This document shows positions 10,945 to 33,287 of a stretch of DNA of 64,000 nt, piece by piece. The stretch's first letter is position 1, and each line of letters begins with the position of its first letter. A model generated the notes under the pieces. The model was given only the letters and a program-made list of their open reading frames with translations, made no database searches and had not been told where the DNA came from. The stretch is from assembly GCA_950295325.1 (NCBI GenBank), contig OX485807.1, positions 376,501 through 440,500 of the forward strand, in the 5' to 3' direction. Both the position numbers and the translations under genes were made by a program. The stretch comes from Polytrichum commune. Its lineage: Eukaryota; Streptophyta; Polytrichopsida; Polytrichales; Polytrichaceae.

Positions 10945-10948
10945 TAAT

Positions 10949-10966
10949 TGGCGACCATCGGGGGAT
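10949..10966 (+). promoter_or_regulatory. PBS-like sequence at the wrong end of element 1
   Basis: TGGCGACCATCGGGGGAT follows the left LTR after four bases and reads on the plus strand, opposite to gag-pol. It closely resembles the primer-binding site of element 2 (TGGCGACCATGCTGGGGA) and the tRNA-Arg complement. No polypurine tract is visible where one is expected. Confidence 0.4.
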
Positions 10967-11005
10967 GAATCCAAACATCTCTTGCTCCAAGGGTAAGTTG
11001 CCTAG

Positions 11006-14000
11006 TCAAGCTCGGTACTCCTTACATCTACTTCCCGATGTACGGGTAGGAAAGAGCTCACCATTCAACGTTTCCAATTGAATTGAATTATTAGGAAAGA
11101 CCTCATAGACAAGGTAAGGTCCTAACCATACCGCATTGAATTTCGCCGGAAATTCAAGCTTTCGTGCGTCTTGAATCATGACCATCATTCCCGGTGTTAG
11201 GGCCCTTCTCTTATGTCGTTTGTCGAAAGTAATCTTTCTCCTTCTTTGGATTGCCTCAATATGTTGAGCCGCCATTCTCCTCCCTTCGTCAAGTGCTTCC
11301 AAATCGGTTAGTCGATTTCGTAAGGATTGACTTTCGGTAAGTCTCGTACTCACGGCCACCCTAAGTGACTCGACTTCATATTCGATTGGTAGTGTCGCTT
11401 CAAGACCATAGACTAAGGAAAATGGTGTAGCACGCGTAGTTACCTTATAGGTTGTACGGTATGCCCAAAGTGCCGCCGTTAGTTTCGTATCCCAATCCCG
11501 CTTCGAGTCTATAACCGTCTTGCGTAGTATACTCACCAAAATTCCGTTAACCCTTTCCGTTTGTCCATTGGTTTGTGGGTGGTAGGGAGTAGTCTTCCGG
11601 TGATCAATTTTAAATTTCTCTGTCATCTCTCGAATCAAGTCATTCAAAAAGTGAGTACCCCTATCGCTTACTAGGATCTTCGGCACCCCGAACCGCGAAA
11701 TTATGTTTTCGTACATAAATGTTGCCGCGTGTTCCGCCGTGTCGGTCTTCACCGCTTTGGCTTCCGCCCACTTGGTGAGGTACTCGGTTGCCACCACAAT
11801 ATATTTCATTCCTTTTGAAGATTGGGGATGGACCTCACCCACATAGTCGATGCCCCATTTTTCGAAAGGAATTAAGGGTAATGATACATGTAAAGGCATC
11901 TCCATTCTAAGGTCGTCTCGGGCATACCGTTGGCAAGCGTCGCATTTCCTTACATAGTCATGGGCGTCCTTAAATAGTGTAGGCCAAAAGTAGCCCGCTC
12001 TAAGTATTTTTTGCCCGGTGAGTTGACCCGAGAAGTGACCGCCGCAAGCGCTATCGTGGCAAGCAATTAAAATCGCTTCAACCTCCGTTTTTGACACGCA
12101 TCGTCGTAAAATACCATCGGACCCCCTTCTAAACAACCTATGGCCCACTACAACAAATTGCCTACTATTTACCCTCACCTTCCTTCTCTCTTCTTTTGTC
12201 CACTCTTTGGGCAACTTGTGGGTTGTTAGAAATTCCACTATGCCCGCATACCACTCCGGTGTAGAAGTGACCACAAAGAGGCTATCATCTACTAACATAT
12301 CATTTACCGGATTTTTTCCTATCTCCTCCGACAACCTAGACAAGTGGTCCGCTTGTAAATGCATACGACCCGGTTTATATTCCACTGTGTAGTCGAATTC
12401 TTCTAATAACAAAACCCACCTAGCTAACCTACCACTTAACTCCGCCTTGTTAATTAGATACTTGATAGCCATGTGGTCAACAAAAAATACAACCGGGTTG
12501 CACATGAGGTAATGCCTAAACTTTTTAACGGAAAACACCATGGCTAGGCACTCCCTCTCCGTTGTAGAGTAGTTTCTTTCGGCGGGGGTCAATTGCTTAC
12601 TCGCATAAGCTATAGGTTGATCCTTCTCTTTTTCTCCCGTTGCTTGACAAAGCGCACTCCCTATTGCCACATTACTAGCATCACAATAGACGTGAAAAGG
12701 TTTACCCCAATTGGGTGGTATCAACACCGGATAGGTGCTCAACCTATCCCGCAATTCCTCAAAGGCTTTTTGACAAGCATCCGTCCACTCGAATTTGACA
12801 TCCTTTTTGAGCAAATGGGTAATGGGCACCGCTATCTTTGAAAAATTAGGAATAAGTTCCCGGTACCATCCCACATGTCCTAACAACTTAGAGATCCCCT
12901 TGGAATTGGTTGGAGTTGCCAAGTCGCTTATGGCCGCAATCTTATCCGGATCGGGTTCTCTACCTTTCTCACTAACAACATAACCCAACAACACTCCCTT
13001 ATTCACTCCCAAAAATGTCTTATCCGGGTTCAATGCTAACCTCATCTTCCTACACCTAACCAATGCCTCCCTAACACAATGTAGGTGATCATCCACATTA
13101 CTTTGTGTGCTAAAATCGTCCACAAAGACGGTCATGGATTTGAACAACAAGTCGGTGAAGATATACATTACTAATCGTTGGAAAGTAGCCGGGGCATTAC
13201 ATAACCCAAATGGCATCACTACCCACACAAAAGTACCCCAAGGTGTAGTAAAAGCCGTTTTATGGATATCTTGGAGGGCTATGGAAATTTGATTATAACC
13301 CGCATACCCATCCATAAAGGTATATCGCGAATGACCTCCAACCTCCTCAAGCAACAAGGTGATAAAAGGTAAGGGGAAGTGATCCTTTTGTGTGCACGAA
13401 TTCAATTTCCTATAGTCGACACAAACCCTTAATTTCCCATTTTTTTTCTTTACTAAGACCATAGGAGAAACCCAATCCGTGATTTCCACCGGCTTGATAA
13501 ACCCGGCCTTCAATAACCTTTCCAATTCCGCTTTCACCAACAATTGCAATTGAGGATTCATCCTCCTCTCCTTTTGTCTAATTGGCCTCGCCCCCGGAAT
13601 TAAAGGAATCCGGTGCTCTACCATTTCCCTAGGAATTCCCTTAAGCTCATCGTAGGACCATGCAAAAGTATCACTAAACTCATCCACCAAATTGCTATAC
13701 TTCCTAACCTCTTTCTCCCCCCATTTGGAGCCCATCTTCATTTGTCGGGTTTTTCCATTCTTTAATTTCACATCCACGTACCGCCAATCCGCTTCCGACA
13801 CATGTGCTTGTTCCTCTTTGTTCCGATACCAATCGGAAGGCACATTGGGGTAATCTTTCACATCTTGACCTACAACTATCCCCGTAGACGTGGTCTTGAA
13901 ATGTAAAGGCTCCTCCAATTTCGATGACTCAATAATCACATCCTCCTCTTGAGTCCCATCTACATGAATTAAACTAACCTCACCCTCTTCCACGTCATCT

Positions 14001-17000
14001 ACCCAAGGTGTTAACCCACCGCTAACCCACTCTTCCTCGGTGAGCACCTCACATGGCTCCAACAATGAGCCCTCTCCTAAACTAACACTAGGAAATTCAC
14101 TCCCTACGCCTACTTGGTGAAATGTAACCATTACATCAACCTCGGACTCGGGGTACTCCCTTAGCCATTGGGCATAATCCCCATTATCCCCATAATTGTA
14201 AAAATTAGGACCTAGACTTCCCGAGCCCGAATCTATAACAACCCTTTGACCTTCGGGATGGACGACTCCCACCAATGCCTTGACAATCTCATTCTCGTTT
14301 AAGTCATCAATTTCCTTCTCCAATGGCAAATACATCTCCTTCTTCATCCATCCTTCTAATGAACCAATGGACACTATGACCCTATTACCCTCCGGACCAT
14401 AAGTGATGGATGGTTTAGGTCCACCCCAATTGACCATAGCATTCGCCATCCGCAACCAAGGCCTACCTAGCAAAATGGGGAAGGTGTCCTTGTTGGAGTG
14501 CATTTTAATGACATGGAAGGTGACCAAGTACTCCTCACCTCCCGTAGTCATTCTACAATCCTTGATCATCCCCAAAGGCGTAGTCGAACTTTGATTTGCC
14601 ATATTTATGACCAAAGGTGAAGGCCCCGTGAGTCCAAGTCCCAATTTTTTCATAGTATCCTCCGGTAGTATATTTAGACTACTCCCTCCGTCGACTAGCA
14701 CATTAGGAACCACCTTATCTACTATAACAACTTCTATTTCTATAGCTTTCACGTCTCTTCCACCTTGTGATTGGATCCTAGCGGCTATTTTAGCTTTCAC
14801 CTTCCTCATCCTCTTGTGTACCGGCATTCCCTCCTTTAATGTTTTCCTTGCCGTGGGTGAAATTTCCAATAGTTGGCCGAAAGTAATATCCGCCTTGAGT
14901 GTACTAAGGTCCGCCCACAAGTCGTACCCGGTAGATCTTTCCACCTTAGAATTACCCACTACGTCGAATTCGTCTACGGGAACCCCCGGTCCTTCCCATT
15001 CACCCACATCGCTATTATCCAAGTCATGTACCGCATTAGTCCTCTCCCTATCTTGTAAAATTATATTTTGCCTCTCCACATCCTTAGTAGCTCTTCTAGC
15101 TACCCTATCCAACTCGGAGAGATTAATCTCTTCATCCGAAGAGTAATTTCCTTGCTCTCCTATTCCTACCTCCAACGGGGCATCCCCTCTCCTAGCCCTA
15201 GTAGTTACCGCTAGTGCAGGTGCTTCTTCAACCACACCCTTACCCTTCACTAACTCATATGTAATAGCATTGGTGTGAGGAGGCCATTGACTTTGCTCCT
15301 CTCCAATTCTCGTTGGGAGAGGAAGCATGTCATCACATGTGGCCTCCAACACTCCATCCATGAACCTAACATCTTGGGAGTTAGATGGTCCCGGATCCGT
15401 TGGAGGCGCTTGTCTCCCGTTACTACCATTAGGTGGAACTCCTTGTCTATTTTGTATTGGAATGTAACCGGTTGTAGTTTGCAAGCCCGCCGGTGGATGA
15501 AAAGTTTGCCTAGCATTACTATGGTCATAGTATAAGTTAGGTGGCCTAAGTTCATTGGCCGGTACTCCTTGTGGCCTAGCACCTCGCATATTATTCCTTG
15601 CTTGTTGTTGTGGATTAGCCACCGGGTAAGGGACATTAATTATTTTGTCCGGTTGGCGACACGTATCCGAGGGATGACTTCCTCCACAATTGCTACAATT
15701 AAACTCTTGACCTTCGGACCAACATTGTCCTTGAGCGTGCCACCTTCCACAAAAGGGATGAAATTCCTTCTTCTCTAAATTTTGGCCACCTTGCCCTCTA
15801 GGTTGTGGTCCTCTATTGCTTCCATTTCCATAGTGAGGTGGCGCTTGACCTCGTTGATTTTGTTGAGGTGGGTTACCGTTTCCTCTTTGGTCACGGTTTT
15901 GTCCACTTCTACAAAATTGACGCGTGTGGCCCGGTTGGCCACATTGGACACACCATAATCCGGAAGAATGCCTACCCGACTCAACCGGGGGTGGAGGCCC
16001 CGGTTGTTGACTCCGGATCATTAATGACATTTGATCCGTGAGGCTTTGCATTTGTTTTATCATAGCCTCTTGGAATCCTAGTTGGCTAGCACCTAGTCTT
16101 CTCTCAACCTCCTCCAAGTGTGGATCCGTTCTAGGGGCCGGTAGTGCCAAAAGAGGTGCCGGTTCCCTAACCGCTAAAGGTCGGGGACCGGTGTCCACAA
16201 TGGCATATGGAATTTGGTTCTCATACTTAGCGGGTTCTACCGCTACCACCCTAGGGCGTATGGGGATGAATTGTGGGATCAATTCATCCTCCCTTCTCCA
16301 TAGCCTTTCGTGATCTTTATCCAAGTTTTCAATATCTCTAGCCGCACGCTTGGCATCCGCCAAGGTCAAGGGATTCCTTTCTAGAACACCCCTAATAGTT
16401 CCGGACTTAAAAAACCCTTGAATGAAAAATTGCTTTAGCGTGTCGTCGTTGAGCATGGTACCCACAAATCTAGTGCACACTAAATCAAACCTCCTAATGT
16501 AAGCCGAAATTTCTTCCTCCCTTCCTTGCTTCAATGACGACAATGCCCTTAATGCGGTACTTTGACCCACTTCCGGCCTAAATTCGTTAAGAAACTCCCT
16601 TTGTAATTGTTCCCATCCCCTAAAATGTCCCTCGGCATGATCCCGATACCATTCATAGGCTTCCCCCTCTAGAGTGGTAGGAAACCACACTAACCAATAA
16701 CCCGGGTCGGTTATGAGGAAGCTAGCCAACCGTTCGATATACCGTTCCATGTGCCGAGAGGGGTCCTCATCCTTGGTCCCATAAAATTTAGGGAGATGAG
16801 ATGGCATATCCATCGCCGCTAAATTTTGTGGAACCACAATTGGTAGGCCTCTTGGCCTAATCAATGGGTCTATTGGAGGTATAGGAGGTATGGGCGGAAT
16901 TGGGGGTATGGGTGGTGGATCCATCCCCCGTTCCTCGGCCATGGTGACCGGTGAACTATTCAACAATCCCCTATCAACTTCTACCGGGAATTCTTCTCTA

Positions 17001-17245
17001 AGTGTGTAATTTTCCGAAGAAGTTTCACCACTCAATTTGGAGGGAGTGATCTCCTCTTCAAGTTGAGCTCCAAGTTCTAAGGTGTCTAGAATTGACCTAG
17101 TCCTAGGTTCGACGTTCAAACAACTCTCTATTCTAACATTATCTTGTTCTAATCTATCACTGATTTTAGAGGACCGCCTCTTTCGAGTAGATTTCTCTAG
17201 TCCTACTATCAAACTTGGTTTTTGTGAGCGAGTCCTACCTTGCAT
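11006..17245 (-). CDS. Gag-pol polyprotein of element 1 (2079 residues, intact)
   Basis: It encodes capsid and replication enzymes in one continuous frame. In order: a proline-rich (IPP)n stretch near residues 107-125; a retrotransposon gag domain near 130-300 (YEWYRD); two zinc knuckles, CVQCGQPGHTRQFC near 431 and CSNCGGSHPSDTC near 516; an aspartic protease with VDGGSSLNI near 850; reverse transcriptase with VFVDDF near 1373; RNase H from YCDASN near 1518 to VDHMAIKYL near 1588; one integrase zinc domain, HDSACGGHF...CDAC near 1728-1766; an integrase core with Asp in GIDYVG near 1798, Asp in VSDRGTHF near 1860 and Glu in GQTERVNG near 1895; then a GPY/F-type end (WLGPYLVYEVF). All catalytic residues I can check are present, with no stops or frameshifts. 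Many overlapping ORFs on the opposite strand are shadows. Confidence 0.95.
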   Translation of the reverse strand: MQGRTRSQKPSLIVGLEKSTRKRRSSKISDRLEQDNVRIESCLNVEPRTRSILDTLELGAQLEEEITPSKLSGETSSENYTLREEFPVEVDRGLLNSSPVTMAEERGMDPPPIPPIPPIPPIPPIDPLIRPRGLPIVVPQNLAAMDMPSHLPKFYGTKDEDPSRHMERYIERLASFLITDPGYWLVWFPTTLEGEAYEWYRDHAEGHFRGWEQLQREFLNEFRPEVGQSTALRALSSLKQGREEEISAYIRRFDLVCTRFVGTMLNDDTLKQFFIQGFFKSGTIRGVLERNPLTLADAKRAARDIENLDKDHERLWRREDELIPQFIPIRPRVVAVEPAKYENQIPYAIVDTGPRPLAVREPAPLLALPAPRTDPHLEEVERRLGASQLGFQEAMIKQMQSLTDQMSLMIRSQQPGPPPPVESGRHSSGLWCVQCGQPGHTRQFCRSGQNRDQRGNGNPPQQNQRGQAPPHYGNGSNRGPQPRGQGGQNLEKKEFHPFCGRWHAQGQCWSEGQEFNCSNCGGSHPSDTCRQPDKIINVPYPVANPQQQARNNMRGARPQGVPANELRPPNLYYDHSNARQTFHPPAGLQTTTGYIPIQNRQGVPPNGSNGRQAPPTDPGPSNSQDVRFMDGVLEATCDDMLPLPTRIGEEQSQWPPHTNAITYELVKGKGVVEEAPALAVTTRARRGDAPLEVGIGEQGNYSSDEEINLSELDRVARRATKDVERQNIILQDRERTNAVHDLDNSDVGEWEGPGVPVDEFDVVGNSKVERSTGYDLWADLSTLKADITFGQLLEISPTARKTLKEGMPVHKRMRKVKAKIAARIQSQGGRDVKAIEIEVVIVDKVVPNVLVDGGSSLNILPEDTMKKLGLGLTGPSPLVINMANQSSTTPLGMIKDCRMTTGGEEYLVTFHVIKMHSNKDTFPILLGRPWLRMANAMVNWGGPKPSITYGPEGNRVIVSIGSLEGWMKKEMYLPLEKEIDDLNENEIVKALVGVVHPEGQRVVIDSGSGSLGPNFYNYGDNGDYAQWLREYPESEVDVMVTFHQVGVGSEFPSVSLGEGSLLEPCEVLTEEEWVSGGLTPWVDDVEEGEVSLIHVDGTQEEDVIIESSKLEEPLHFKTTSTGIVVGQDVKDYPNVPSDWYRNKEEQAHVSEADWRYVDVKLKNGKTRQMKMGSKWGEKEVRKYSNLVDEFSDTFAWSYDELKGIPREMVEHRIPLIPGARPIRQKERRMNPQLQLLVKAELERLLKAGFIKPVEITDWVSPMVLVKKKNGKLRVCVDYRKLNSCTQKDHFPLPFITLLLEEVGGHSRYTFMDGYAGYNQISIALQDIHKTAFTTPWGTFVWVVMPFGLCNAPATFQRLVMYIFTDLLFKSMTVFVDDFSTQSNVDDHLHCVREALVRCRKMRLALNPDKTFLGVNKGVLLGYVVSEKGREPDPDKIAAISDLATPTNSKGISKLLGHVGWYRELIPNFSKIAVPITHLLKKDVKFEWTDACQKAFEELRDRLSTYPVLIPPNWGKPFHVYCDASNVAIGSALCQATGEKEKDQPIAYASKQLTPAERNYSTTERECLAMVFSVKKFRHYLMCNPVVFFVDHMAIKYLINKAELSGRLARWVLLLEEFDYTVEYKPGRMHLQADHLSRLSEEIGKNPVNDMLVDDSLFVVTSTPEWYAGIVEFLTTHKLPKEWTKEERRKVRVNSRQFVVVGHRLFRRGSDGILRRCVSKTEVEAILIACHDSACGGHFSGQLTGQKILRAGYFWPTLFKDAHDYVRKCDACQRYARDDLRMEMPLHVSLPLIPFEKWGIDYVGEVHPQSSKGMKYIVVATEYLTKWAEAKAVKTDTAEHAATFMYENIISRFGVPKILVSDRGTHFLNDLIREMTEKFKIDHRKTTPYHPQTNGQTERVNGILVSILRKTVIDSKRDWDTKLTAALWAYRTTYKVTTRATPFSLVYGLEATLPIEYEVESLRVAVSTRLTESQSLRNRLTDLEALDEGRRMAAQHIEAIQRRRKITFDKRHKRRALTPGMMVMIQDARKLEFPAKFNAVWLGPYLVYEVFPNNSIQLETLNGELFPTRTSGSRCKEYRA

Positions 17246-18154
17246 TCCATAAGAATCGATCGACCCTCACTTGACCACACATAATCCTAGCAATTCCCCT
17301 CTTAATATTTTCACTTGTCTTGGTGTGGTTATAATTTTTTTAGGAGGTGAGGAAAAGAACCTGCAAGCCCACTTAGGTGAAAGAATCCCAATAGGGGATA
17401 GGCATGTTCATGTTAATTTTTTGGTTAAGTCGGAGCATCATCTCCGCACCTTCCCGCAAATTAACACTCACCACAATACCGATTGTGAGGGGGTGACCTT
17501 CCGAGTAGATTATGTTAAAAGTCGAGGCTTCACCCTTCAACTTCTCACACCATCCACAATTCGGGAATTACCCTCTACAACGGATAACAACAATCACGAG
17601 TACAAAAGGCATTCCTTAATTAGTTAATGAGTTCACTTTGAAGAAATAAACATACCTTGAGCAATCGCATCCCCCTGTGAGTTAGCACTCCCCTCAATCG
17701 TGACTAAATGTAACAACACCATAAACTTTGTGAAATATTAATTTAATCTAGAGCATGAAATGACAACTCCCAAAACTTTGAGACTCACCCCGAGGTGAGT
17801 GTCAAAGTTCAATGTCCTAAGGTGAATTTACCCTCTAATGTTTTAATGAGCTACTCGGTTATAGGTTCCTTTTAAGTTCTTAGCAAATTCCCAAAAAGGT
17901 TGAGGACGTACCTTCGCCGCGCTCCTTCCTCAAAAATGAATTTGCGTAATTGACAATGCAATTCATTCCAAGGAATAGTTGAAATACAATGAATTCAAAT
18001 GTAACCCAAAGAGAGAATACTTACCGAGTTTCGGGTGCTCCTTCGCTTCTCTCAAGTTTGTGTCTCCAATTTTTCCTAGTTGCCTCCAAGTCTCCTAGTC
18101 GCCTCCAAGTCTTGTAACTACCTTCCGGTTCGCTCCCGGCGGACGCACCAATTA
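17246..18154 (-). other. Leader of element 1 between LTR and gag
   Basis: About 0.9 kb between the LTR with its PBS and the gag start. A plus-strand frame of 118 codons (17271-17627) has no recognisable domain and is treated as chance. No other feature is seen. Confidence 0.5.
18133..18150 (-). promoter_or_regulatory. Primer-binding-site candidate of element 1
   Basis: On the minus strand TGGTGCGTCCGCCGGGAG starts four bases after the LTR end, in the correct place and orientation for first-strand priming. The following GCGAACC resembles the complement of a tRNA T-loop. I could not identify the tRNA. Confidence 0.55.
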
Positions 18155-19761
18155 TGTGAGGCCAAACCCCCACCCTTAAGCGTCCGTAGTCCGAGTAGTG
18201 GGTTTGGGCTCACATTCTTCCGCGGTATTGGATTTGGACTTGGATGAGTCCATAGTGCAAGGTTCACCCTTCAAGTGGTCTTGGATTTAACTAGCTCCTT
18301 CATAAACCCAGCTCCTTCATAAACCCAGCTTCTTAGCTTCTAACTAAACAAACCCAGCTCCTTCATAAACCCAGCTCCTTCATGAACCCAGCTCCTTAGC
18401 TTCTAACTAAACAAACCCAGCTCCTTCATAAACCCAGCTCTTTACTTTCTAACTAAACAAACCCAGGTCCTTCATAAACCCAGCTCTTTACTTTCTAACT
18501 AAACAAACCCAGCTCCTTCATAAACCCAGCTCCTTCATGAACCCACAACTTTGTAGTTGTAATCCCCAACTACCTCACTAATTATTCAAGCCCTTAACTA
18601 ATCTTCCTACCTAATTTCCCTAATTCTACTAACAACCCCTTTCTAATCACACAATTCTTCTCTAATCCTAAAATCCTAAAATCCTAGAGAGGAGAGGGGG
18701 AGAGAGAATTTCCTAACTTCACTAAGACTAACTAATCCACACAAGTATATTTTTGCACTCATCACAACATCAAGTGCTCAACTCTTAAACATGGAACTTG
18801 CAACCACGTGTATTCAAAACATGAACTTTAAGTACCACAAATTGGAATCATGAATTAACTTTAAAATCCTTCACGTCAACACTAATTCTACCAAGAGGTC
18901 AAGCCCTCTTCAAGGCTAACAAGCCTTGGCTCTCAAACTAAAAACTAAGCACACACATGTGCTCCAATATGGCTTCCCACACCCACACTTATAACTCGTG
19001 GGGTGCCTTGGAGCACAAAGGAAAGAGAGGATGAGTGAGGGAAGAATGAGGGATTATATAGTAAGCTTGAGGGGGTGAGCACCCTCAAGGCTCACGATAA
19101 GCCCTTGAGATTTCCTCCTACTTAGTAGGCGCCAATCCTATCTTCTAAGCCTTCCTCCCTCAAATGATCAACAAGGATCCTAATTCGAACATTTAACTAG
19201 CCTTGGCTTTCTACCTACCACACTTTACCAAACTTGGGATGCTTCAACCCAAACTTAGCCTCCTTCGCTTTCCGCCGCCATAACTTTCTCCCCTTACTTT
19301 CCCAAATCGTCGCTCACCACTTAATTCAAACCACGATGCTTAACTCGTGATTTGATTGGTGCTTTGAGAATTTGCTTATCCTCCACCTTGCATTCTTCCT
19401 TGGGCCTTCCCCATTAAGTGGCCATGATGAGGTGGTCCACTTGTGCGCTCCATGTGATCCTCCATTCATCCCAATTCGAATGCACTTGCCTCTTGAGTCA
19501 CTTTGGTTGTCTCCATCCATTTGTACTAGCCTACTCACTAACTACTCAATCCAAGTTCTCCTTACCTATCCTCATTCGCTCAAATCCTTCCGAAGGTAAA
19601 AACACAATAACAACTCACATCCTAGCCTCTTACAACATGGTACTTCTAAGACTAACATTTCATTCTTTTTATATTTTTGTGAAGTAACATGCTACTTCAA
19701 AGTGCATCAACTAACGTTTCAAGGGTCTAAGACTAAATGTGGGCACCCTTTTGGGCTCACA
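18155..19761 (-). repeat. Element 1 5' LTR (1607 bp, internally deleted)
   Basis: Compared with the other LTR it lacks about 268 bp (equivalent to 9058-9325) and several minisatellite units. The breakpoint shows a CT microhomology. The missing part includes the TATA-like motif, the hairpin and the AATAAA on the coding strand. The rest appears essentially identical to the 3' LTR. Confidence 0.88.
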
Positions 19762-20170
19762 TGGTAGGTTCAAAAGAAGCAATTGCTTCTTTGACCAGCT
19801 GTGGGTGCAGCACTCCCCAAGAGACTGAAGTTACAAAGTCTTCAAGGTGAAGGGCCTTCAAGACCCCTCTTTCTTCTGGGGTAAGTTTGTAATTGAGGTC
19901 AGCATTAGTGCTGAACACGTACAACTCTGTGTGCTCTGCCTCTAGTCCTCGCTTCATGCTTTCTGTGAATTCAGGATTCTTCTCCCACTCCGATACTGCA
20001 CTCTTCAGAATTGTTTGGAAAACATGGAATTTGCAAGTTTGGAAGTACCACTGGGACTTACCAAGGTTCCAGTGCACTTTAGAGAAAGCTTTGAGGCAAG
20101 CAAGCTGCACCCCCTTCCAAAATCTGCCATCCTCGTCCAACTTGGGCTGATACTGATTCGGACACTCCAT
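19757..20170 (-). pseudogene. ORF cut off by element 1, function unknown
   Basis: A 137-codon frame whose last two codons fall inside the element 1 LTR, so the real C-terminus was removed by that insertion or by a rearrangement. The visible end contains LEDFVTSVSWGVLHPQLV, which I do not recognise with confidence. It may be a 3' accessory ORF of element 2, since it lies on the same strand downstream of its pol, or a fragment of another element. No continuation is found left of element 1. Confidence 0.4.
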
Positions 20171-22155: not shown

Positions 22156-25100
22156 TTACTTAGTGGGTTGCTTCCCCTTGCCCCCTTTCAGCCCTAGTGG
22201 GGTGGGGTCCATCCTCTCTTGAAGAGTGTTTACATTAACGCTCCCTTCATGAATTTGTTTTAGGTTTCCTAATGGTTCACAATTTGCTTGACCCTCTAAA
22301 GGTATTTGTTTCAGTGTCCCTAATGGTCCGCAGGTAGTTTGACTCCCTAGGGTGGCATTATTCCCCTTTAGTGGGTTGATTGCGTCATAAACTTGGTGTT
22401 GAGGTATGTCATTCCTTGGTGGGGAGGGTTGTGCCCAATATCCTTCCAACATGACTCGATGTATTTCCAAATCTTCCGCGTCCAAGGTTGCTTGGTCCGG
22501 GTAAGGGGTAGATTTAATGGGTAAAATGGTTCCTCCATTATGGTGAGAGAATGAGGTGTCTTGGGGTTGGGTTGGATCATTCCTTTCAGGTATATGGGTT
22601 CTCTTTGCTCGAATCTCTGCCTCAAGAACATGGCATGCCAAAATTTGTAGGGCATAGGCTTGAGTGGATTCCGGCTCTTGATAAGGCTTGAGTTTGTTCA
22701 TGTTGACTCGCCCCAAGTCCTCTCCCTGCAGGGTGGTGACGTCAACTGATCCGTTGTCATAAACATGCTTAATAAGATAAGGTCCTGCCCATCTTATTTT
22801 AAACTTGCCTGGCCCAGGTATTTTATGGCGTAAGTGCCACAAGATTCTTTGGCCAGGGTAAAATCGTATTTTGGGAACGGTCGGTAGTTCAGGCTCTTCA
22901 CTCCTTGGGGAGTGCTTGAACTCCTCCGTGGCTGGTAAAATTCCTCCCTCCAAAGGATTATGCCGTTGGGCTTTCTTTTGGGAAGTTTTGCTTGCTCCAT
23001 GGTGACACTGCTTGCAATGTGTCCGTTTCCGAGGTTGGTCATGCCTTTCTTTGCGCAATAATTGCATGTGCCTCATGTTTTCTTCTGCTTCATGTCGAGT
23101 TAAATCAATGCTTCTGAGTTGTTCCATCCTCCTTTCAAGAATGGGATGTATATCCTGGCTCCTTTGTTGGTGAACGTCAGGATGTAGGTAGGCCATAGGT
23201 AGCAAAGCTTCTGTCCCAAACACTAAAGAGAATGGGGTGTGCTTTGTTGTCACCTTATAGGCTGTCCTATATGCCCAAAGTGCTGCATGCAATTTGGTGT
23301 CCCAATCTGTTCGATTGGCATTAACCATTTTGGTCAAGGCGATCTTGATTACTTTGTTGGTGCTCTCAGCTTGCCCGTTAGCTTGCGGGTAATATGTTGT
23401 TGACTTTCGATGTAAAATCATAAATTCGTGAGTGAGCACTTTGATGGTGTCATTAATAAAATGACCTCCCTGATCGCTCACAAACTCCAATGGGCATCCA
23501 AATTTTGTGATTATTTCCTCAAAGAGGAATTTGGCTGTCGACTTAGCCGTATTATCCTTTAGAGCTCTCGCTTCCACCCACTTGGTGGTGTAGTCAGTCG
23601 CAGTAATAATGTACCGATTCTTGGTACTTTTAGCTGGCGGGTTAACCGGTCCAATGAAATCCAATCCCCATTTTTGAAATACCTCAGTAGGCATTGTGGG
23701 ATGTAAGGGTTGGAGATTGGTTGAAATCTTGGGGCCAACTCTTTGACAAATATCGCATTGGGTGCAATATAAATGGACATCTCTTTTCATGGTGGGCCAC
23801 CAATACAAGGCGGTCAATACCTTGTGCAGGGTAATGTTGGCTGAGAAATGCCCTCCGGCAATTCCCTCATGAGCCTCAGCAATAATGGCAGTAGTTATTG
23901 GCCCGTTCACACATATTCTCCGTAAGCCATTAGGGCCTTCTTTGATCAAGGTCCCATTGTGGGTCAACCAATACGGCCTACTACGTATTGCTATTTGTTG
24001 TCGTTGGGTGATCGATGCCTCCGTGGTCAATCGACCATGCTTCAAATAATCAATGAAAGGAGTTCTCCAATCAGGTTCCTCCTTGTCTTTGCTTGTGACC
24101 GTTTGGCAGTCGATCACATGTTTTGAGGTTTCTCGAGGCTGACACTGCACACAATTTTTACAGAGATGATCGATGTCTGGCGGTATTGTGGGCCACCAGT
24201 AAGGGCCTGAAGTGACCCGCGAGATCATTTCATCCATCGAGAGGTGTGGGGATCTCTGTTGATGAATGGTTGTTAGCCATTTGATTCCCTCATCTTGGGA
24301 TATACACAATTTGATGTCTCCATTTAACCTTCGGCTCAATATATCTTCTTCCAGGAAATAATCATGTATTTCCTCTTTCAATATCCCCAACTCTTCTTGG
24401 AATACTAGTTCACTCAATTCCATTGGGTGTTTTAGGTGTTGTATGATTGGTTCTCGCCAATCCTGTGCTTCACCTCTTCTGAATGGGATGGTTCCATACT
24501 TCGCAGCTCGGAAGCTTAACGTTGTCCCGAGCTGACATATCCGGCATTCGTCAACTAAACGTTGCACGTCTAGAGAGATAGTTGGCCACCAGTACGGGCC
24601 TTCGTGCACTTGAGCGGTTGTTTCTTTCACAGTCAAGTGTGGTATTTGATATTCGTGTACCCTCTTTACCCAATCGACGGCGTCTCCTTTTGTGATACAC
24701 ATTTTTACTTCACCATCGGGTAATTGATACTTCAAACCATCCTTGGTTATGAAATACATTTCAGCGTTGGGGTCAAGTAATCCCACATTTTTATGGGTGT
24801 CAATAAAGTTCCAATCTTCAAAGCTTTCCAGTCGTTGTATGACTGAGTGCCTCCAATCCGGCTCGGATATTGGTTCTGGGAGCGCCGCGCTTTGACTTTC
24901 CTCGGGGTGTTTTGTCTTGCTCTCTGTTCCTCTACAACTATCACAGTGCTTTAGGTAGTTGCATACGTCATGTCCCCACGTTGGCCACCAATACGCCCCG
25001 GTGGCTATGGCCTTCCAAGTTTCTATGGCTGCCAAATGGGGCATGCTTTGTCCATGAATCTTAGCTAAGTACGCGGGTACTTGAGTCTCTGGTATACACA

Positions 25101-26360
25101 TTTGGTTACTCTTCCCTCCTTTGCGTATCCGTTGCAAAGTACCGTTGGTGAACACAAAATGCTTATGGCTTTGCTCCACCGCTCTCCTCACCTCTGGTGG
25201 TAAGGCTTGGTCAAAGATTTTTCCGCATGTCAGGTATTCCAAATATGGACGTCTCCAATCTAGGCTCTTCTCACCTAGAAGTGTTTGTGTTTCTTTTTCT
25301 GTTGCAAGCCCGACTTGGTTGCTGCAAACCGGGCATTTCCCGTTGCATAAGTTCTTGATGTCGGACCCGCACGTGGGCCACCAATATGGCCCAAACATGG
25401 ACAGGTGCCATGTGGTTTCCATGCTAAGATGCTCTCCTGTGTCCGTGACATGTAGTTCTTGTAGGTATTTGTCTACCTCATGTCCGGCAATACATATCTT
25501 GATTTCACCATTTGATAGTATTCTTTTCAATTTGCCTTCTTCGATGAAGTATTCCCGGCTCTGGCGGGCAATCTTCTTGTGTTGTCCTTTCGAGATGTGG
25601 GGCCCCTTAAGGTACCCATAGGTGAGGTATTCTATGAATAACCTCCTCCAATCCTTGTTGTCTTGTGGTTGTGCGGCAATGGATCCGCAAATTATGTTAT
25701 GGTATGGGCCTGTAAATCGCTCTCGACAGGATCGACAATCATACTCAATGTAGAATTGTATATCACTTAGCCCCATCGTGGGCCACCATCGGTTCCCTTG
25801 TAAACAGCGTAACCAGGTGTATTGATCGTTTAGGTGCGCTTTTCGATAGACATGCATTTTTCCTATATAATGCTTGATTTGGTAATCCGCAATGCATATC
25901 TTCGCCATTCCGTTCTTCTCTAATTTTCGGAGTTTTCCTTTCTCCAATGTGAAAATCTCACTCTCTCGTATGAGCTCTCGTTGCCGTCTTTGAGTCTCTG
26001 TGTCCATCTTGAACTTCCCCCGTGCCATGTATTCAACCAGGGGTGTTCTCCAATCATTGAAGGTTTCTTTGTACGGTATCATGTCCGTCTCATTACTAGG
26101 TTGTGAAGAGCTTTCCCCCGCTGGTAACTCTTCTCCCTGCCCTTCGCATTCAGTGCATAGCGTGATGAGTAGTGAAACATCTTCTGCTATGGTTGGCCAC
26201 CAGTACGGTCCTTGTAGTACCAGTTGTTTGGTGGCGTTTACCGAGAAATGCCGATTTCCCTGTATATGTAGGGTCTTGATGTAACTCCTCACATACCTTC
26301 CAGGTATACATTTCTTTATGATGCCGTTGTGAAACATGCGATGTAGTTCTCCTTGAGTAT
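22156..26360 (-). CDS. Element 2 pol, second part (rest of zinc array, integrase core, tail)
   Basis: The open frame begins upstream at 26472, but the meaningful sequence starts near 26355, where it takes over module 5 from the first frame. It contains the second half of module 5, then modules 6-11. Module 11 (HEGIAGGHF...CTQCDIC) is the closest to a standard integrase HHCC domain. The integrase core follows, with Asp in GLDFIG (about 23662), Asp in VSDQGGHF (about 23474) and Glu in GQAESTNK (about 23374). A GPY/F-like C-terminal domain (RWAGPYLIKHVYDNGS, near 22790) precedes a ~200-residue low-complexity tail. The catalytic triad looks complete. No chromodomain is seen. Confidence 0.9.
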
Positions 26361-28180
26361 GAAGAATCGACTGCGGTAAGCCAGCAATCTCCTTTCCTCT
26401 AGGGGTAGGGAACTCACCCACGGGGTCCCGTACGTTTGACAGGTTAGATATTGGACATATGGTATTGTCCAATCCGGTTCCGCTTTCCCTGTCATATCCT
26501 CTTGTGCCTCCAAAGGTTTGACAGGAAGGGGGTCATCGTCGTCCTCGGAGTCGTGTGGGGTAATGTCCCCAGTTACGTCACCTTTGTCTGCCAACTTACA
26601 TACTGGGCATTCATCACAATACTCCAGTACATCTCTTCGCCGTGTGGGCCACCAATAAGGTGTGCATAGTATATAGTGCCACGTAGAAGATAGATTGTAA
26701 TGTACTCCGTCCTGTACATGGGCTTTACCCATAATTTCTTCGATGATATCCCCGGCTACGCATTCGTGTACTTTGCCGGAGATACTGACCCGCATGAGCT
26801 TCTCCTCGTCCAAAACGAAAGGTTCACTCAGCTGTCTAACTTTAGTTTGTTCTTCAGGGGTAGCGAGTACGGACAACAATTTTCCGTGTGTAAGGTACTC
26901 AATAAAAGGTGCTCGCCAATCCTCAAACGGCTGCACATGTACCATGAATAAGCTTGCTAAGTTGTGAAATTGTTCCCGACATGTCGGGCAACCGTATTTG
27001 ATAAAATGTTGTACGTCGTAGATCCCCATGGTAGGCCACCACCGATTTCCTTTCGAGACCCGAAACCAAGTTTGATCAGCGGTTAAATGTTTTTGTTGGT
27101 AAGTATGCATTTCCTCTATCCATTGCTTGATTTGAGGTCCCGCAATGCATTCTTTGGTTTTCCCATTCTTCTCTAATCTCCTGAGTTTTCCTTTGTCCAT
27201 CCTAAAAAACTCGCTTCTTCGTATGATCTCTTTGTGTTCCCTTCGCGTAAGTGTCCCTACCTTGATTTCTCCCTGGGTCAGATACTCGATTATTGGTGTT
27301 CTCCAATCATTGAGGGTCTCTTCATAGGGTACGACGCCTTCTGAGGTAGTAGGTTTGTGGAATCCTTCCTTTGGGGCCAACTCGTCCCCTTTTCCACGAC
27401 AACCTGTACACAAGGTTATGAACAACGAGAGGTCCTCTGCTATGGTGGGCCACCAATATGGCTCTCGTAAGATGAGTTGCAGGGTGGCGTTGAATGAGTA
27501 ATGCCGATTTTCACGTATATGGAAAGCCTTTATGTAGCTTCTCACGTACTTTCCAGGCATACATCTTTTGACGACGTTGTTCTGGAAGATGCGGTGTAAT
27601 TCCCCTTCCTTTAGTATAAAGAATTGACTGCGATGAGCTATTAATTGCTTCTCTATCTCAGGTAGGTCGTCTTCCCATTTGGTTCCATGGGTCAAATACT
27701 GAACATAGGGGGTCGTCCAATCGGGATCGGTACCACTTGTCAAGATCTCTCCGGCTTCCCAAGGCTCAATTGGTAGCACGTTATCGGGGTCTTCAGTATC
27801 GGCCGGTGAGAATGTGTCGTGCATCTCTCCTTTATTTACCATGTTACATACCGGGCAATTTTGGCAATATGCCAAAACATCCTTCCTACGAGTAGGCCAC
27901 CAGTAAGGTGTGCGCAAAATATTCTGCCATGTGGTCGTGAAATTAACATGTGTTCCTTCGTGTTCGTGGGCTTCACCTATCATTTCTTCAATGATATCGC
28001 CAGCGATGCACTTCTGTACCTTACCAGTGATGCTTACCCGCTTGAGTGTTTCGTCATCTAAAACGAATGGTTTGCTTAGTTGTTTGATCTTATCCTGCTC
28101 TTGTGGGGTGGCTAGAACTGATAGTAATCTTCCATGGGTAAGGTATTCAATAAAAGGTGCTCGCCAGTCTTCAAAGGGTT
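23740..28180 (-). repeat. Eleven tandem integrase zinc-binding (HHCC) modules
   Basis: Each module is ~340 bp (about 112 residues). It starts with DWR/DWT plus PxxxYL, has a segment ending in [CM][IM][AP]G, then H-x(4-6)-H, the core YWWPT or RWWPT with a DV/DI after it, and C-x2-C. Approximate coding spans (high to low): 1 28178-27845; 2 27728-27400; 3 27312-26980; 4 26930-26595; 5 26480-26145 (frameshifted); 6 26062-25720; 7 25660-25320; 8 25268-24930; 9 24864-24530; 10 24470-24135; 11 24078-23740. Acidic or Ser/Pro-rich linkers of 20-40 residues separate them. Standard gypsy integrases have one such domain. Confidence 0.9.
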
Positions 28181-31100
28181 GTACATGAACCATGAAGAGG
28201 CTAGCATCTGGAAACTGATCTTGTACCCCCGAGGGGTCTTCTCCACTTTCTATCCTGGATAGGTGGTCAGCCATCACATGGCTTCTACCGGGCTTGTAGA
28301 CCACTTCAAAGTCATATTCCTGAAGCAAAAGCATCCATCTTGCAATACGCCCGGATACTACTGGTCTATTGACCAAGTATATCAACGCTTGATGGTCCAC
28401 GTAGAAGACAAAATGATTGGCTAGTAGGTAATGCCGAAATTTGCCCACCGAATAAATCATTGCTAGAGCTTCGCGCTCCGTTGTGCTGTAGTTCTTCTCA
28501 GCACTGTTCAAAAGTCGGCTTGCATAATGAATCGGAGAATCTCTATCTCCATGTATGTTTTGGGCCAAAACGGCTCCAATAGCTATGTTGGACGCATCAC
28601 AGTGCACGTGAAAGTCCATTGTCCAATTGGGAGTTATGAGTATGGGTGTGGTCGTGAGCCTTTTCTTCACTTCGTCAAAGGCCTCCTGACACGACTTGGT
28701 CCAAATGTACTTTTCTCCTTTCTTGAGCAATAAGTACAAGGGCCGAGTGATATCCGCATACATCCATATGAACTTGCGGTGGTAAGTGGCTTGTCCCAAG
28801 AAACTCCGAATTCCCCGTACTGTGGTTGGTGGGGGTAATTCCTTGATGACTCCCACCTTCTTAGGGTCCACCAACAATCCTTCCCTGCACACTACATGCC
28901 CAAGTAACCTCCCGGAGTTTACACAGAAAAAACATTTCTCCGGGTTCAAGCTCACTCCATTTTCTCGACATTTAATGAGACACTTTTCCAAGTGTTCAAT
29001 ATGGTCTTCCTTGGTGCCATATACGGTAAAGTCATCTAGAAAAACCTTCATAAATTTGTCAAGGTAGTCGGCGAAAATCTTCATCATACCCCTTTGGAAG
29101 GTGGCTGGTGCACACATCAATCCAAAGGGCATCACTCGGTATGCGAATGCTCCATACTCGGTGATGAAAGAGGTTTTCAGCTGGTCTTCCAGCGCGATCA
29201 TGATTTGGTTGTAGCCGCTGTACCCGTCCATCAACGTGTACATCTCGTGTCCTGCAACTGCTTCCAAGATTGATTCCGTAAAAGGTAGAGGAAAATGATC
29301 TACCTTGGTGACTGCGTTGAGTTTGCGGTAGTCAACGCACACTCGTAGTTTCCCATTCTTCTTGGGCACAATCACAATTGGTGATAACCATTCCGTTTTG
29401 TCAATGGGGTATATGAATCCTGCCTCCAAGTATTTGTCAATTTCTTCCTTGACCTTGGCGGCATAATTGGGATTCATCCTATAGCGCATTTGCCTTACCG
29501 GCTTGGCCTCAGGCTGCAACTCGATCTTGTGTTCGCATATGTGCGGAGGTATCCCTTTCATATCTTTGTATGTAAATGCGAATACGTCCTTGAATCTTAA
29601 TAAGAGTTCTTTTACTTGTGCTTCGTAGTCACCCAGATCCTTGGCTATCTTGACCAACTTAGGATCCTCCGGAGTACCTAAGTTCAAGTTTTTGACCAAG
29701 TCTTCATCTTCAACAGTCCATCCGGCTATTTTTTTCCCCTTGACAGCTTCTGAGGCAGGGGTACGGTCCACTGTTATGTCTCCTTCTTTTGCTTTGTAAA
29801 ATTGGGAGGGGTATACAGGTTTCTCCTCCATAGCCTCTTGCTCCTTTTTGGTCGCTTTCCTCGACCGAGGTTTCTCGGATTTACCTCCCTGTGGTGTAGG
29901 CGTTCCGACAGCAGCAACCTCCATTGTATTGCAACTTGGTCCTTTTAACTTTCTCAAGCTTTTCAAATCGAAATCTCCCATGGGGAGTAGTTCGGGGAAG
30001 GCCTCATAGACTATGGCTTCTTCCTCATCCGATAGTCCCATCTCCCAGTCGTAATCTTCCCAATGCAAAGGTCTCTTTGCAGGTGATAGTGCGGGAGTTC
30101 TTCGGGTACTTACTTCCACCTTGTTCCCTCCTTGGGTCAAGGTCAGTTTGTTGAGGGGCCAGTCATGTTGGGCTTGAGCCTCCTTCAACCACGGTCTTCC
30201 CAATAGCAGGGAATAACTATCTTCGGTACTCACCATGTCTATAACTGTGAGTGTCGTCCGGATCACAATTCCGCCAACATCAAGGCGTACATCCCGGATA
30301 ATTCCTTTGGGCATGACCTTTCTTTGGTCTGCCATTTTTATGGTGAATGGTGCGGGCTCTATCTTCTTGAGTCCCAATTTCCTTCTTAACGTGTCCGTGA
30401 TGATGTTCACTCCTGAACCACCATCGATCAAGGCGTTTGGTACTTGCCTATTCTTCACAATTACGGATATCATGGGCATTTCTTCATCAAATGCCTTTGC
30501 CGTAACTTGATAGGTTTGAGTCGGTTCTTTCGACTTCTCCTCATGTGTTAACGCCGCCATTATCCGCTTCTTGCAATAAGGGGCTATCTCAAGTAACTGT
30601 CCGATTGATATGTTTGCTTTCGTGTGATTCATCACACTCTCCAAGATCTTATCTACCCTTGCCTGGGTAGCTGTTGGGACGCCTCCTTCCTTGGGGCTCC
30701 GTTCCGTGGGCTTCTCTGCCTCTTCCTTTTCTAGGTACCAAGGTGCGAACTCTTCTGGCGTGGATAGAGCTTCGCCCTCTTCCTCCTGTATCTCATGGAT
30801 AGTCTTACTCACCTCCCGGTGGACTTCCCTATCCGCTTTCCATTCTTCACTGTTGGCTCCTATCGGCCTTTCTTCAATCACTTTGTTGCGCTCGTTATCC
30901 TCGAACGCGTCATCCCTTTCATCTTCAGAGTTCTCCTCTCTCTTTCGGTGGTCTTCTTGCTCCTCCGAGCTGCCACTGCTCGATTCATCATCGTCGTCAC
31001 TGTCATCACTTTCACTATCCTCCTTGCCTTTCTCGGCTGCAGCCCGCTGGGCTCTTGTCATTACACAAACCGCAGGGGACACCACATTGGCTCTTACTGC

Positions 31101-33287
31101 CGGTTTCGTGTTTCTAAACCCACTCAACTCCTGTTGGTGTTTAATAAAGTGCGGACAATCCGGATTCCGGTGCCCCTTCTGATGACAATAAAAACACTCG
31201 TCGGGGTTGCCATCTCGCTGTGGTCCGCCAGTGAACCCAGTTCTCGGCGCTGCCTTGGTGTTGTTACTATCCATCAGGCTTCTGGTATACTCATACCTGT
31301 CATGGTTGATAGGTCCTCTGGGGCCTCCTCGGTAGGGGTATCCATCTTCCCTCCGGAAATCTTGGGTCTTGTAAGGGGAATATCCTTCCCTTCTGAAATC
31401 ATTCCTGTAGTTGTCATTGGGCCTGTAATAGGGCCGTTCATCTCTGCGATATTCATTTCCCCGGTAGGGGCCTCCCGCCTCCCGCCGGTAATCGCCTTCC
31501 CTATAAGGGGATCTCTCTTCTCTTCTAAACTCAATCCTTGGTTCAAACCGAACCCTTCGATCATTCATGTCTCGCCTAGGAGTTATCGCTCCTGGCCTTC
31601 GATTGGTTTGGGGTTGCACTTGATTTACCCCATATCTCCTCTCTCGGGGTCTCCGAGATTCGTGCCTTTCATAGACACATTCACTTGTGTTATGCGTTAG
31701 GCTGTTGCAGTTGGTGCACTGCTTCATCTGACACTCCTGCACGTAGTGTCCTTCATTTCGGCATCTCCGGCAGATGATGCCTGTTCGAAATTTCCTGCTC
31801 CCTAGAGCTAGTCCTTCAATCTCTTCCCTAAGGGTCTTTATGTCGTCTTTGGTAGAGTCGTTTCTCTTACCCTTTGACTTTCTCTTCTTTTTCTTGCGCT
31901 CTTCTTCCGAGTCATCACTCGAGTCGTCGCTGTCACTTTCATCGAGGAATCTTCCCTTCCTCATTTGACCTAGCTCCAATTTCCGAGCTGAGGCCTTCGC
32001 TTCTTCTAAGTCATCAGTTGGCATGAGATCAATATGCTTGGCGTACTCCTTTTTGAGGCCGTTAAGAAACCATGCCTTCTTGAAATGATCACTGGGCTGT
32101 GGATTGATCTTTGATGATTCTACCATCACCCGTTCGTAAAATTCTTCAACAGTTTCATCTTTCTTTTGCTTGAGGGATCCTAGACTCTCAATCACTTCTC
32201 CCTCAGACTTCTTGGATCTAAATCTCATCAGAAAGGCAGCTCCCAAGGAGGGCCAATCCGGAAAATGGTGTGGGCCAAATTGAGAATACCATTCTAGTGC
32301 CCGCTTCTTCAAGGTAACTGGAAATAATTGTAGCTTGATTGCGTCGGTGTCTTCCTGGTTGGCAAGACAAACATTGTTAAACTCCTGCATATACGTATCA
32401 GGATCAGTCTTACCCTTATAGGTCGGTAAGGGAACCTTCGTTCTCCGTGGTTGAGCGGCCATGTTGGCTGGGTTAGGTGGGTTGTTCCCAAAACTTGGTA
32501 CGCTGTTGTTGTTGGCTGGTGGTGGGCTGACTCCGGGGTTAATTCCAAGGTTTTGGAATTGCCTAAGTCTTTCTTCAAACTTCCTCCTTAGTTCGTCAAA
32601 CTCCTCTTGACTGATAGGTTTCTTTACTTCTTGGTCGGTGTTGTTCTGTGTGCTTCCTCCGGAGAAACCGGAATCCTCGTAGCTAAATTGTGTCTCAAAA
32701 TTTCTTTTTAAATCTTCCCAAGTCCTGTGGTTGAGAAGGTCTTCCTTGTTCGGGTTTCCTTGATGAGCTTTACCCTTATCCTGCACCCCACTCCCCGGGG
32801 TATTCGTCCCGGTGGTTTCACCTGTACCTTTTGTTCTTAGCACATAGGTCCCAAGAGGGGTACCTATTATCAAGTCATCTTCGTCTTCGCTTTCTTCTTG
32901 AGTTGGGTTGTTCTCCGTTGTGTCTTTTTCTTTGTATGTTTTATCGTTACCTCCTCCTTCACTTCGACTCCTTTGGTGGATAGGTTTGGTGGTGTGGGAA
33001 CCTACTGCCGGTGGCTCAGAAGCATTTCTATTTTCTTCTTCTCCTGTAGTTCTCTGACGCGTACGCCTCGCGTACCTCTCTTCTCTCTCTCTCTTCTGCT
33101 GTTCGTTCCGTCTCACGGAATCCTCTCTAGCGTGCATGCGCTCCACATGCCTCCGCTCGGCTTCTTGTTCCCTTGGGGTTGGTGATGTGCTTCTCGTGCT
33201 AGATGTGTCCTCATGGTCAACCATGTACGCTACTGAGAGTGTTTCGGGATCATATCTTGGCCGGCTCTCCCAGCTCTGTCGCCTCAA
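26316..33287 (-). CDS. Element 2 gag-pol, first part (2323 residues, ends at a frameshift)
   Basis: In order: a charged N-terminus; a gag domain near residues 290-450 (ALEWYSQF near 326); zinc knuckles CRRCRNEGHYVQEC near 503, CTNCNSLTHNTSEC near 520 and CFYCHQKGHRNPDC near 696, separated by an Arg/Tyr-rich repetitive linker (about 560-680); a protease with LIDGGSGVNI near 951; RT with LRVCVDYRKLN near 1307 and VFLDDF near 1417; RNase H with VHCDASN near 1563, DHQALIYL near 1630 and ADHLSR near 1673. It then enters the zinc-domain array: modules 1-4 are complete and module 5 breaks off when the frame is lost near 26355. The last ~14 residues before the stop are out-of-frame sequence. Overlapping ORFs on the other strand are shadows. 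Confidence 0.92.
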   Translation of the reverse strand: MRRQSWESRPRYDPETLSVAYMVDHEDTSSTRSTSPTPREQEAERRHVERMHAREDSVRRNEQQKREREERYARRTRQRTTGEEENRNASEPPAVGSHTTKPIHQRSRSEGGGNDKTYKEKDTTENNPTQEESEDEDDLIIGTPLGTYVLRTKGTGETTGTNTPGSGVQDKGKAHQGNPNKEDLLNHRTWEDLKRNFETQFSYEDSGFSGGSTQNNTDQEVKKPISQEEFDELRRKFEERLRQFQNLGINPGVSPPPANNNSVPSFGNNPPNPANMAAQPRRTKVPLPTYKGKTDPDTYMQEFNNVCLANQEDTDAIKLQLFPVTLKKRALEWYSQFGPHHFPDWPSLGAAFLMRFRSKKSEGEVIESLGSLKQKKDETVEEFYERVMVESSKINPQPSDHFKKAWFLNGLKKEYAKHIDLMPTDDLEEAKASARKLELGQMRKGRFLDESDSDDSSDDSEEERKKKKRKSKGKRNDSTKDDIKTLREEIEGLALGSRKFRTGIICRRCRNEGHYVQECQMKQCTNCNSLTHNTSECVYERHESRRPRERRYGVNQVQPQTNRRPGAITPRRDMNDRRVRFEPRIEFRREERSPYREGDYRREAGGPYRGNEYRRDERPYYRPNDNYRNDFRREGYSPYKTQDFRREDGYPYRGGPRGPINHDRYEYTRSLMDSNNTKAAPRTGFTGGPQRDGNPDECFYCHQKGHRNPDCPHFIKHQQELSGFRNTKPAVRANVVSPAVCVMTRAQRAAAEKGKEDSESDDSDDDDESSSGSSEEQEDHRKREENSEDERDDAFEDNERNKVIEERPIGANSEEWKADREVHREVSKTIHEIQEEEGEALSTPEEFAPWYLEKEEAEKPTERSPKEGGVPTATQARVDKILESVMNHTKANISIGQLLEIAPYCKKRIMAALTHEEKSKEPTQTYQVTAKAFDEEMPMISVIVKNRQVPNALIDGGSGVNIITDTLRRKLGLKKIEPAPFTIKMADQRKVMPKGIIRDVRLDVGGIVIRTTLTVIDMVSTEDSYSLLLGRPWLKEAQAQHDWPLNKLTLTQGGNKVEVSTRRTPALSPAKRPLHWEDYDWEMGLSDEEEAIVYEAFPELLPMGDFDLKSLRKLKGPSCNTMEVAAVGTPTPQGGKSEKPRSRKATKKEQEAMEEKPVYPSQFYKAKEGDITVDRTPASEAVKGKKIAGWTVEDEDLVKNLNLGTPEDPKLVKIAKDLGDYEAQVKELLLRFKDVFAFTYKDMKGIPPHICEHKIELQPEAKPVRQMRYRMNPNYAAKVKEEIDKYLEAGFIYPIDKTEWLSPIVIVPKKNGKLRVCVDYRKLNAVTKVDHFPLPFTESILEAVAGHEMYTLMDGYSGYNQIMIALEDQLKTSFITEYGAFAYRVMPFGLMCAPATFQRGMMKIFADYLDKFMKVFLDDFTVYGTKEDHIEHLEKCLIKCRENGVSLNPEKCFFCVNSGRLLGHVVCREGLLVDPKKVGVIKELPPPTTVRGIRSFLGQATYHRKFIWMYADITRPLYLLLKKGEKYIWTKSCQEAFDEVKKRLTTTPILITPNWTMDFHVHCDASNIAIGAVLAQNIHGDRDSPIHYASRLLNSAEKNYSTTEREALAMIYSVGKFRHYLLANHFVFYVDHQALIYLVNRPVVSGRIARWMLLLQEYDFEVVYKPGRSHVMADHLSRIESGEDPSGVQDQFPDASLFMVHVQPFEDWRAPFIEYLTHGRLLSVLATPQEQDKIKQLSKPFVLDDETLKRVSITGKVQKCIAGDIIEEMIGEAHEHEGTHVNFTTTWQNILRTPYWWPTRRKDVLAYCQNCPVCNMVNKGEMHDTFSPADTEDPDNVLPIEPWEAGEILTSGTDPDWTTPYVQYLTHGTKWEDDLPEIEKQLIAHRSQFFILKEGELHRIFQNNVVKRCMPGKYVRSYIKAFHIRENRHYSFNATLQLILREPYWWPTIAEDLSLFITLCTGCRGKGDELAPKEGFHKPTTSEGVVPYEETLNDWRTPIIEYLTQGEIKVGTLTRREHKEIIRRSEFFRMDKGKLRRLEKNGKTKECIAGPQIKQWIEEMHTYQQKHLTADQTWFRVSKGNRWWPTMGIYDVQHFIKYGCPTCREQFHNLASLFMVHVQPFEDWRAPFIEYLTHGKLLSVLATPEEQTKVRQLSEPFVLDEEKLMRVSISGKVHECVAGDIIEEIMGKAHVQDGVHYNLSSTWHYILCTPYWWPTRRRDVLEYCDECPVCKLADKGDVTGDITPHDSEDDDDPLPVKPLEAQEDMTGKAEPDWTIPYVQYLTCQTYGTPWVSSLPLEERRLLAYRSRFFILKENYIACFTTAS

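Follow-up and report, generated by a model that had tools for sequence, protein, structure and literature searches.

A tandem array of integrase N-terminal zinc modules, apparently inherited in fixed order, in a Ty3/gypsy-type retrotransposon of Polytrichum commune

In a Ty3/gypsy-type LTR retrotransposon of Polytrichum commune, eleven modules stand in tandem after RNase H and before the integrase core, each made of the integrase N-terminal extension (NED) and the HHCC zinc domain (NTD). To our knowledge, the integrases of retroviruses and Ty3/gypsy elements are considered to have a single zinc-binding N-terminus in each chain. That the modules are of this kind, and that the array is real and inherited, we hold to be close to certain. 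Our reading of the whole is held more tentatively, at somewhat under even chances: the element would be a damaged copy of a Ty3/gypsy family whose integrase was enlarged by module duplication and whose upstream modules serve in docking.

The stretch analysed (the window, 64,000 nucleotides) holds this element, element 2, on the minus strand, with the order Gag-protease-RT-RNase H-integrase recognizable by Pfam and motifs (Table 1). The catalytic motifs of RT, RNase H and integrase are all present, and a C-terminal motif in ORF B is one that we take to be GPY. Coding is divided between two overlapping ORFs. ORF A (P0002, 33287-26316, minus strand) contains Gag, protease, RT, RNase H, M1-M4 and the start of M5, while ORF B (P0001, 26472-22156, minus strand) contains the remainder of M5, M6-M11, the integrase core and the C-terminus. 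The frame changes inside M5. The copy is therefore damaged by a frameshift, and the single polyprotein described in the first-pass annotation is, in the window, two ORFs. The window, which may not span both ends of element 2, shows no pair of LTRs flanking it; the distance from the end of element 1 to ORF B is about 2.4 kb. At E<=1, Pfam gave no chromodomain family in P0001 and no additional RNase H (PF13456) in P0001 or P0002.

Table 1. Features of element 2 (positions in the window)
Feature	Position	Strand	Basis
Gag (PF03732 stretch)	32052..32330	-	hmmscan, residues 320-412 of P0002
Aspartic protease stretch (ALIDGGSG)	30183..30464	-	Pfam below cut-off and motif
Reverse transcriptase, FLDD motif	28893..29369	-	Pfam and motif
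RNase H	28314..28703	-	Pfam and motif
M1, type A	27840..28172	-	module profile and ligand alignment
M2, type B	27393..27725	-	module profile and ligand alignment
M3, type C	26970..27311	-	module profile and ligand alignment
M4, type A; upstream linker is one otherwise found behind RNase H	26595..26924	-	module profile
M5, type B, first part, ORF A frame; then frameshift	26349..26480	-	module profile
M5, type B, zinc-binding part, ORF B frame	26140..26391	-	module profile
M6, type C	25720..26058	-	module profile and ligand alignment
M7	25315..25656	-	module profile and ligand alignment; structure model
M8	24928..25260	-	module profile and ligand alignment
M9	24532..24861	-	module profile and ligand alignment
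M10	24136..24465	-	module profile and ligand alignment
M11, adjoins catalytic core; position of the single module in ordinary elements	23740..24075	-	module profile, ligand alignment, tree
Integrase catalytic core, D, D-35-E; Pfam stretch 23386-23688, last catalytic residue just outside	23323..23688	-	Pfam and motif
Integrase C-terminal part, GPY motif	22603..22860	-	motif

A module profile, run as a six-frame scan of the window, finds eleven modules in element 2, where M5 is split into two pieces that lie in different frames, and a single module in element 1; every one of them is on the minus strand. It has no matches elsewhere in the window and none in shuffled segments (0/258). This profile was built from the array's own modules, so the scan is not an independent test. 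Pfam PF17921 matches six separate stretches in ORF B and three in ORF A, and zf-H2C2 matches two in ORF B. When the modules are scanned singly, with M5 represented by its ORF B part, 11 of the 12 (eleven from element 2 and one from element 1) reach E<=1 with PF17921, so that most modules, and not module 11 alone, are recognized. The array runs from 23740 to 28172 on the minus strand, in agreement with the earlier proposal of eleven integrase zinc-binding domains between RNase H and the core, next to an element with a single one. Element 1 itself (8920-19762) is a Ty3/gypsy element with an uninterrupted 2079-codon ORF, one zinc module and LTR parts that are 98.6% identical.

The motif YWWPT occurs nine times and RWWPT twice. 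Two His and two Cys are invariant across all 12 aligned modules, with HHCC in 11/11 of those in element 2; the chance that ten random invariant columns out of 111 core columns would cover the four named ligand columns is 3.5e-5. The modules presumably bind zinc. Linkers of 15-39 residues separate the module cores, giving a repeat period of 129-149 residues (nine measurable intervals); the annotated succession of modules stands, while the period is longer than the module length of roughly 112 residues given there. Protein identity is 62% for M1/M4, 58% for M2/M5 and 54% for M3/M6, and 19-38% between modules outside these pairs. Judged by sequence, M4-M6 is a divergent repeat of M1-M3. A tandem DNA repeat that happens to be read in frame was considered and rejected, given the low identity outside the pairs and the lack of any array reported by Tandem Repeats Finder between 21702 and 35563.

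Structure modelling, suggested in the first-pass annotation, supports the assignment to integrase N-termini. The model of M7 is confident (pLDDT 89) and matches the N-termini of prototype foamy virus (PFV) and Ty3 integrase; a joint model of M8-M11, from a 5-row alignment, is of low confidence (pLDDT 32). The NED-NTD of Ty3 integrase (7q5b) and that of PFV integrase share the HHCC ligands of the array and the fold of the M7 model. They differ in number: Ty3 and PFV have one NED-NTD per integrase, against eight to eleven diversified ones in the array.

Further copies of the array come from two protein searches, which gave ten same-family proteins, nine from ENA and one from JGI (P0130): P0004-P0006 and P0124-P0130, the last seven being the 7 matches among 7998 scored candidates of their search. 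The first protein search, with P0002 residues 1690-2300 as query, had 0 matches in 5121 candidates at a lower length limit of about 1280 residues; the members of the family recovered afterwards measure 457-956 residues, below that limit. These copies possibly come from one or few hosts. No relative was found in viral contigs, scanned with M10-M11-integrase and with RT as queries, or in genome contigs, scanned with the stretch from M8 to the integrase core.

Each ORF covers part of the array. By best-match mapping, the RNase H side is represented by P0124 (tail behind RNase H-4-5-6-start of 7), P0125 (RNaseH-4-5-6), P0129 (RNaseH-4) and P0130 (RNaseH-part of 4), the middle by P0126 (end of 4-5-6-7-8-9-start of 10), P0127 (5-6-7-part of 8) and P0128 (5-6-7-8), and the core side by P0004 (end of 6-7-8-9-10-11-core), P0005 (7-8-9-10-11-core) and P0006 (8-9-10-11-core). 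Module order is identical in 8/8 ENA ORFs with two or more modules. Four ORFs (P0124, P0125, P0129 and P0130) cover the boundary downstream of RNase H, and in each of them the leading module is closer to M4 than to M1. Tiled together, the ORFs suggest that the usual array probably has eight modules; eleven, with the extra block M1-M3, have so far been seen in the window copy alone. Neither of the outcomes named as refuting in the first-pass annotation (a profile match to module 11 alone, or no array in any other genomic copy) has come about. A tree was built from 70 modules, namely all array modules with 60 columns or more plus the modules from 20 of 118 other proteins; it uses 111 columns and leaves many forks open. 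Six of the eight types (A, B, C, M8, M9 and M11) form supported cross-copy groups in it; M9 falls inside M10 and both inside M7, so that M10 and M7 are not closed groups. In P0124, similarity is lost abruptly early in M7 and the protein ends soon after (about residues 490-500), as a frame change would give. This end, together with the break in M5 in the window, suggests that broken copies are common.

How the window copy came by its extra block can be partly narrowed down. A recent duplication of M1-M3 was rejected, with pS at 0.71-0.77 between paired modules. Acquisition from a divergent relative by recombination seems more likely, because the other copies resemble M4-M6 more than M1-M3 and because M4 carries the linker otherwise found behind RNase H, with a sharp start of homology. 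The tree points to no particular source for the block: M1 falls within A and M2 within B, but M3 is placed apart from the remaining C modules.

The modules have evolved under constraint, since synonymous change between the paired blocks is saturated while amino-acid change is small. Between M1-M3 and M4-M6 (370 codons, M5 entered by its ORF B part only), pN is 0.235 and pS 0.739, a ratio of 0.32 (bootstrap 0.26-0.38), against 0.81-1.27 in neutral simulations at equal divergence (n=100); changes by codon position number 107, 72 and 206. Of 50 array domains from 12 ORFs, 44 retain the complete set of four ligand columns; HHCC stands in 43 of them, and the type A module of P0125 has YHCC instead. 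M9 of P0005 is degenerate too, reading YPC- with the last column missing, and the other five domains are cut pieces. Net charge is likewise kept by type: negative in A, M9 and M10 (14/14 modules examined), positive in B, C, M8 and M11 (23/23) and variable in M7 (-4 to +5). Over 16 chosen pairs, the NED (79%) is conserved to the same degree as the zinc part (80%).

Orthologous modules are 57-89% identical to those of the window. The integrase core is 97% identical in P0005, 98% in P0006 and 88% in P0004, and RNase H 94% in P0125, 96% in P0130 and 87% in P0129. Relative to the core, divergence in P0005 and P0006 is 7.7-18.5 for M7-M10 and 4.0-5.5 for M11, ratios that rest on 2-3% core divergence and rounded figures; in P0004 it is 0.9-2.7, with no excess. 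As a single-module control, 25 elements from outside the family supplied 18 pairs whose cores are 80% or more identical; their ratios have a median of 2.0 and a range of 1.3-10.3, overlapping the array ratios. Rapid change of the modules is thus suggested in two of three copies, and it could reflect weaker constraint.

Over RT-RNase H, element 2 is 96% identical to P0130, 60% to P0009 and 59% to P0008. A tree built on 34 of the 97 extracted rows places it as the partner of P0130 and joins it, at an open fork (83/90), to the Riccia and other elements, apart from Tat-like elements with an additional RNase H. By integrase, the nearest relatives outside the family, among the best 120 of 351 matches, are the Ty3/gypsy elements P0008-P0010, P0012-P0014 and P0016-P0025, which include the liverwort Riccia sorocarpa (44-54% identity over 22-33% of the query). 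In contrast to element 2, this set has a single module in 16/16 by the array's module profile.

Module duplication is also found outside the family. Among 118 such proteins (117 of the best 120 of 351 matches, plus element 1), 63 have two profile matches and none has three or more (0/118). The ligands of the first and second module are HLCC/HHCC in 34 of the 63, HDCC/HHCC in 13 and HHCC/HHCC in 3. Tat-like elements of Fagus, Prunus avium and Camellia have a tandem pair of modules separating RNase H from the integrase core (for example P0026 residues 712-923 and P0085 residues 494-704), but they have the additional RNase H that element 2 lacks, and their first module is mostly without the second His. 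The name Tat, for dual-RNase H elements, is our assignment by PF13456. Their duplication appears separate from that of the array family in the tree, where branches are long. Tat clusters without the additional RNase H are described in PMC10508981, and element 2 may have a wider Tat kinship. Two ENA proteins, P0007 (residues 3-239) and P0011 (residues 493-730), have HHCC in both of two tandem modules; unlike the array they stop at two, and they fall outside the array types in the tree, on long branches. P0015, also with HHCC in both, we take to be a chimera because its two matches lie 890 residues apart. Duplication of the module seems to recur in plant elements, with the array family as the extreme case.

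We propose that the integrase grew through successive tandem duplications of the NED-NTD (HHCC) module that it already had. M11 would still do what an integrase N-terminus normally does, namely hold the cDNA end and the other subunits. The upstream modules would have diversified into separate types (A, B, C, M7, M8, M9 and M10) on linkers, in apparently fixed inherited order. Eight types including M11 would probably be the family standard, to which the window copy adds a second A-B-C block. We infer that the modules stay fused to the integrase after processing. The string could then dock integrase to target-site or other host factors, the zinc core being fixed and the surface freer to change. 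This docking role is possible rather than probable; we favour it because module order is fixed and charges are kept by type. In evolutionary terms, the family might be a so far undescribed Ty3/gypsy lineage with a hetero-modular integrase: seven or more specialised N-terminus paralogues in cis, in fixed order and with diversifying surfaces, forming a docking or targeting arm or a mostly one-chain intasome. We put this wider statement just short of an even chance.

Other explanations share parts of this evidence. In large retroviral intasomes, supernumerary integrase subunits donate N-terminal domains, and the extra modules might replace these in cis, so that fewer chains are needed. For the module profile as for the M7 model, the match extends over the entire NED-NTD of PFV and Ty3 integrase, and types B, C, M8 and M11 are basic; the Ty3 NED stabilises contacts with the LTRs, as described in PMC8632968. 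Equivalent subunits, however, would hardly show 19-38% mutual identity outside the pairs and partly acidic surfaces, and we consider a scaffold of this kind unlikely, though the strongest of the rivals. Little less plausible is an expansion that is simply tolerated, the module duplicating easily and extra copies needing only to fold and not to hinder the polyprotein. The two-module proteins outside the family, their first module mostly without the second His, fit this, as does a module divergence far above that of the core in two of the three copies. Yet ligands kept in 43/44, order in 8/8, charge by type and purifying selection exceed what a useless spacer would lead one to expect, even if the need to fold explains part of it.

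The array adjoins RNase H in the polyprotein, and it might instead bind genomic RNA or cDNA and aid packaging or reverse transcription. We think this improbable, as every copy examined has acidic A, M9 and M10 modules, 7/10 linkers are net negative, and Gag already has zinc knuckle motifs (a weak Pfam match, below cut-off). The multivalent binding arm or scaffold of the first-pass annotation remains compatible with the data, but a uniform nucleic-acid-binding arm is disfavoured because the module types have conserved, opposite net charges. An artefact of assembly or rearrangement at a single locus would fit the confinement of the eleven-module form to the window. It is nevertheless exceedingly improbable, and as an assembly error the array is ruled out: comparison of blocks 1-3 and 4-6, module by paired module, shows 385 differences over 1110 aligned bases, and eight further ORFs contain arrays. 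A docking arm is, on balance, the reading that we prefer.

A search of titles and abstract openings, with most subscription papers and bioRxiv preprints outside its scope, gave no title on tandem integrase zinc domains and none on two-module Tat-like elements. The words zinc and HHCC are absent from the main text of the plant LTR survey PMC6317226, and the word zinc from PMC10508981. A tandem-module integrase is thus undescribed as far as the literature searched shows. Eight apparently inherited module types offer natural material on what an integrase N-terminus binds, how multimers count subunits and how target sites are chosen. Module duplication that recurs in plant elements could be missed by surveys that count a domain once per protein.

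Rfam and tRNA scans of the window had no matches. Elsewhere in it, ORFs of 518 and 351 codons (5566-7122 and 45397-46452, both minus strand) have no Pfam match above cut-off. Two ORFs at 37533-39848 (plus strand) carry Transposase_21 and DUF4218 and encode a tnp2-type transposase, presumably of the CACTA type. Tandem arrays of a 348-349 base unit lie at 163-1927 and 7369-8847, mutually inverted and about 91% identical, and element 1 begins just past the second.
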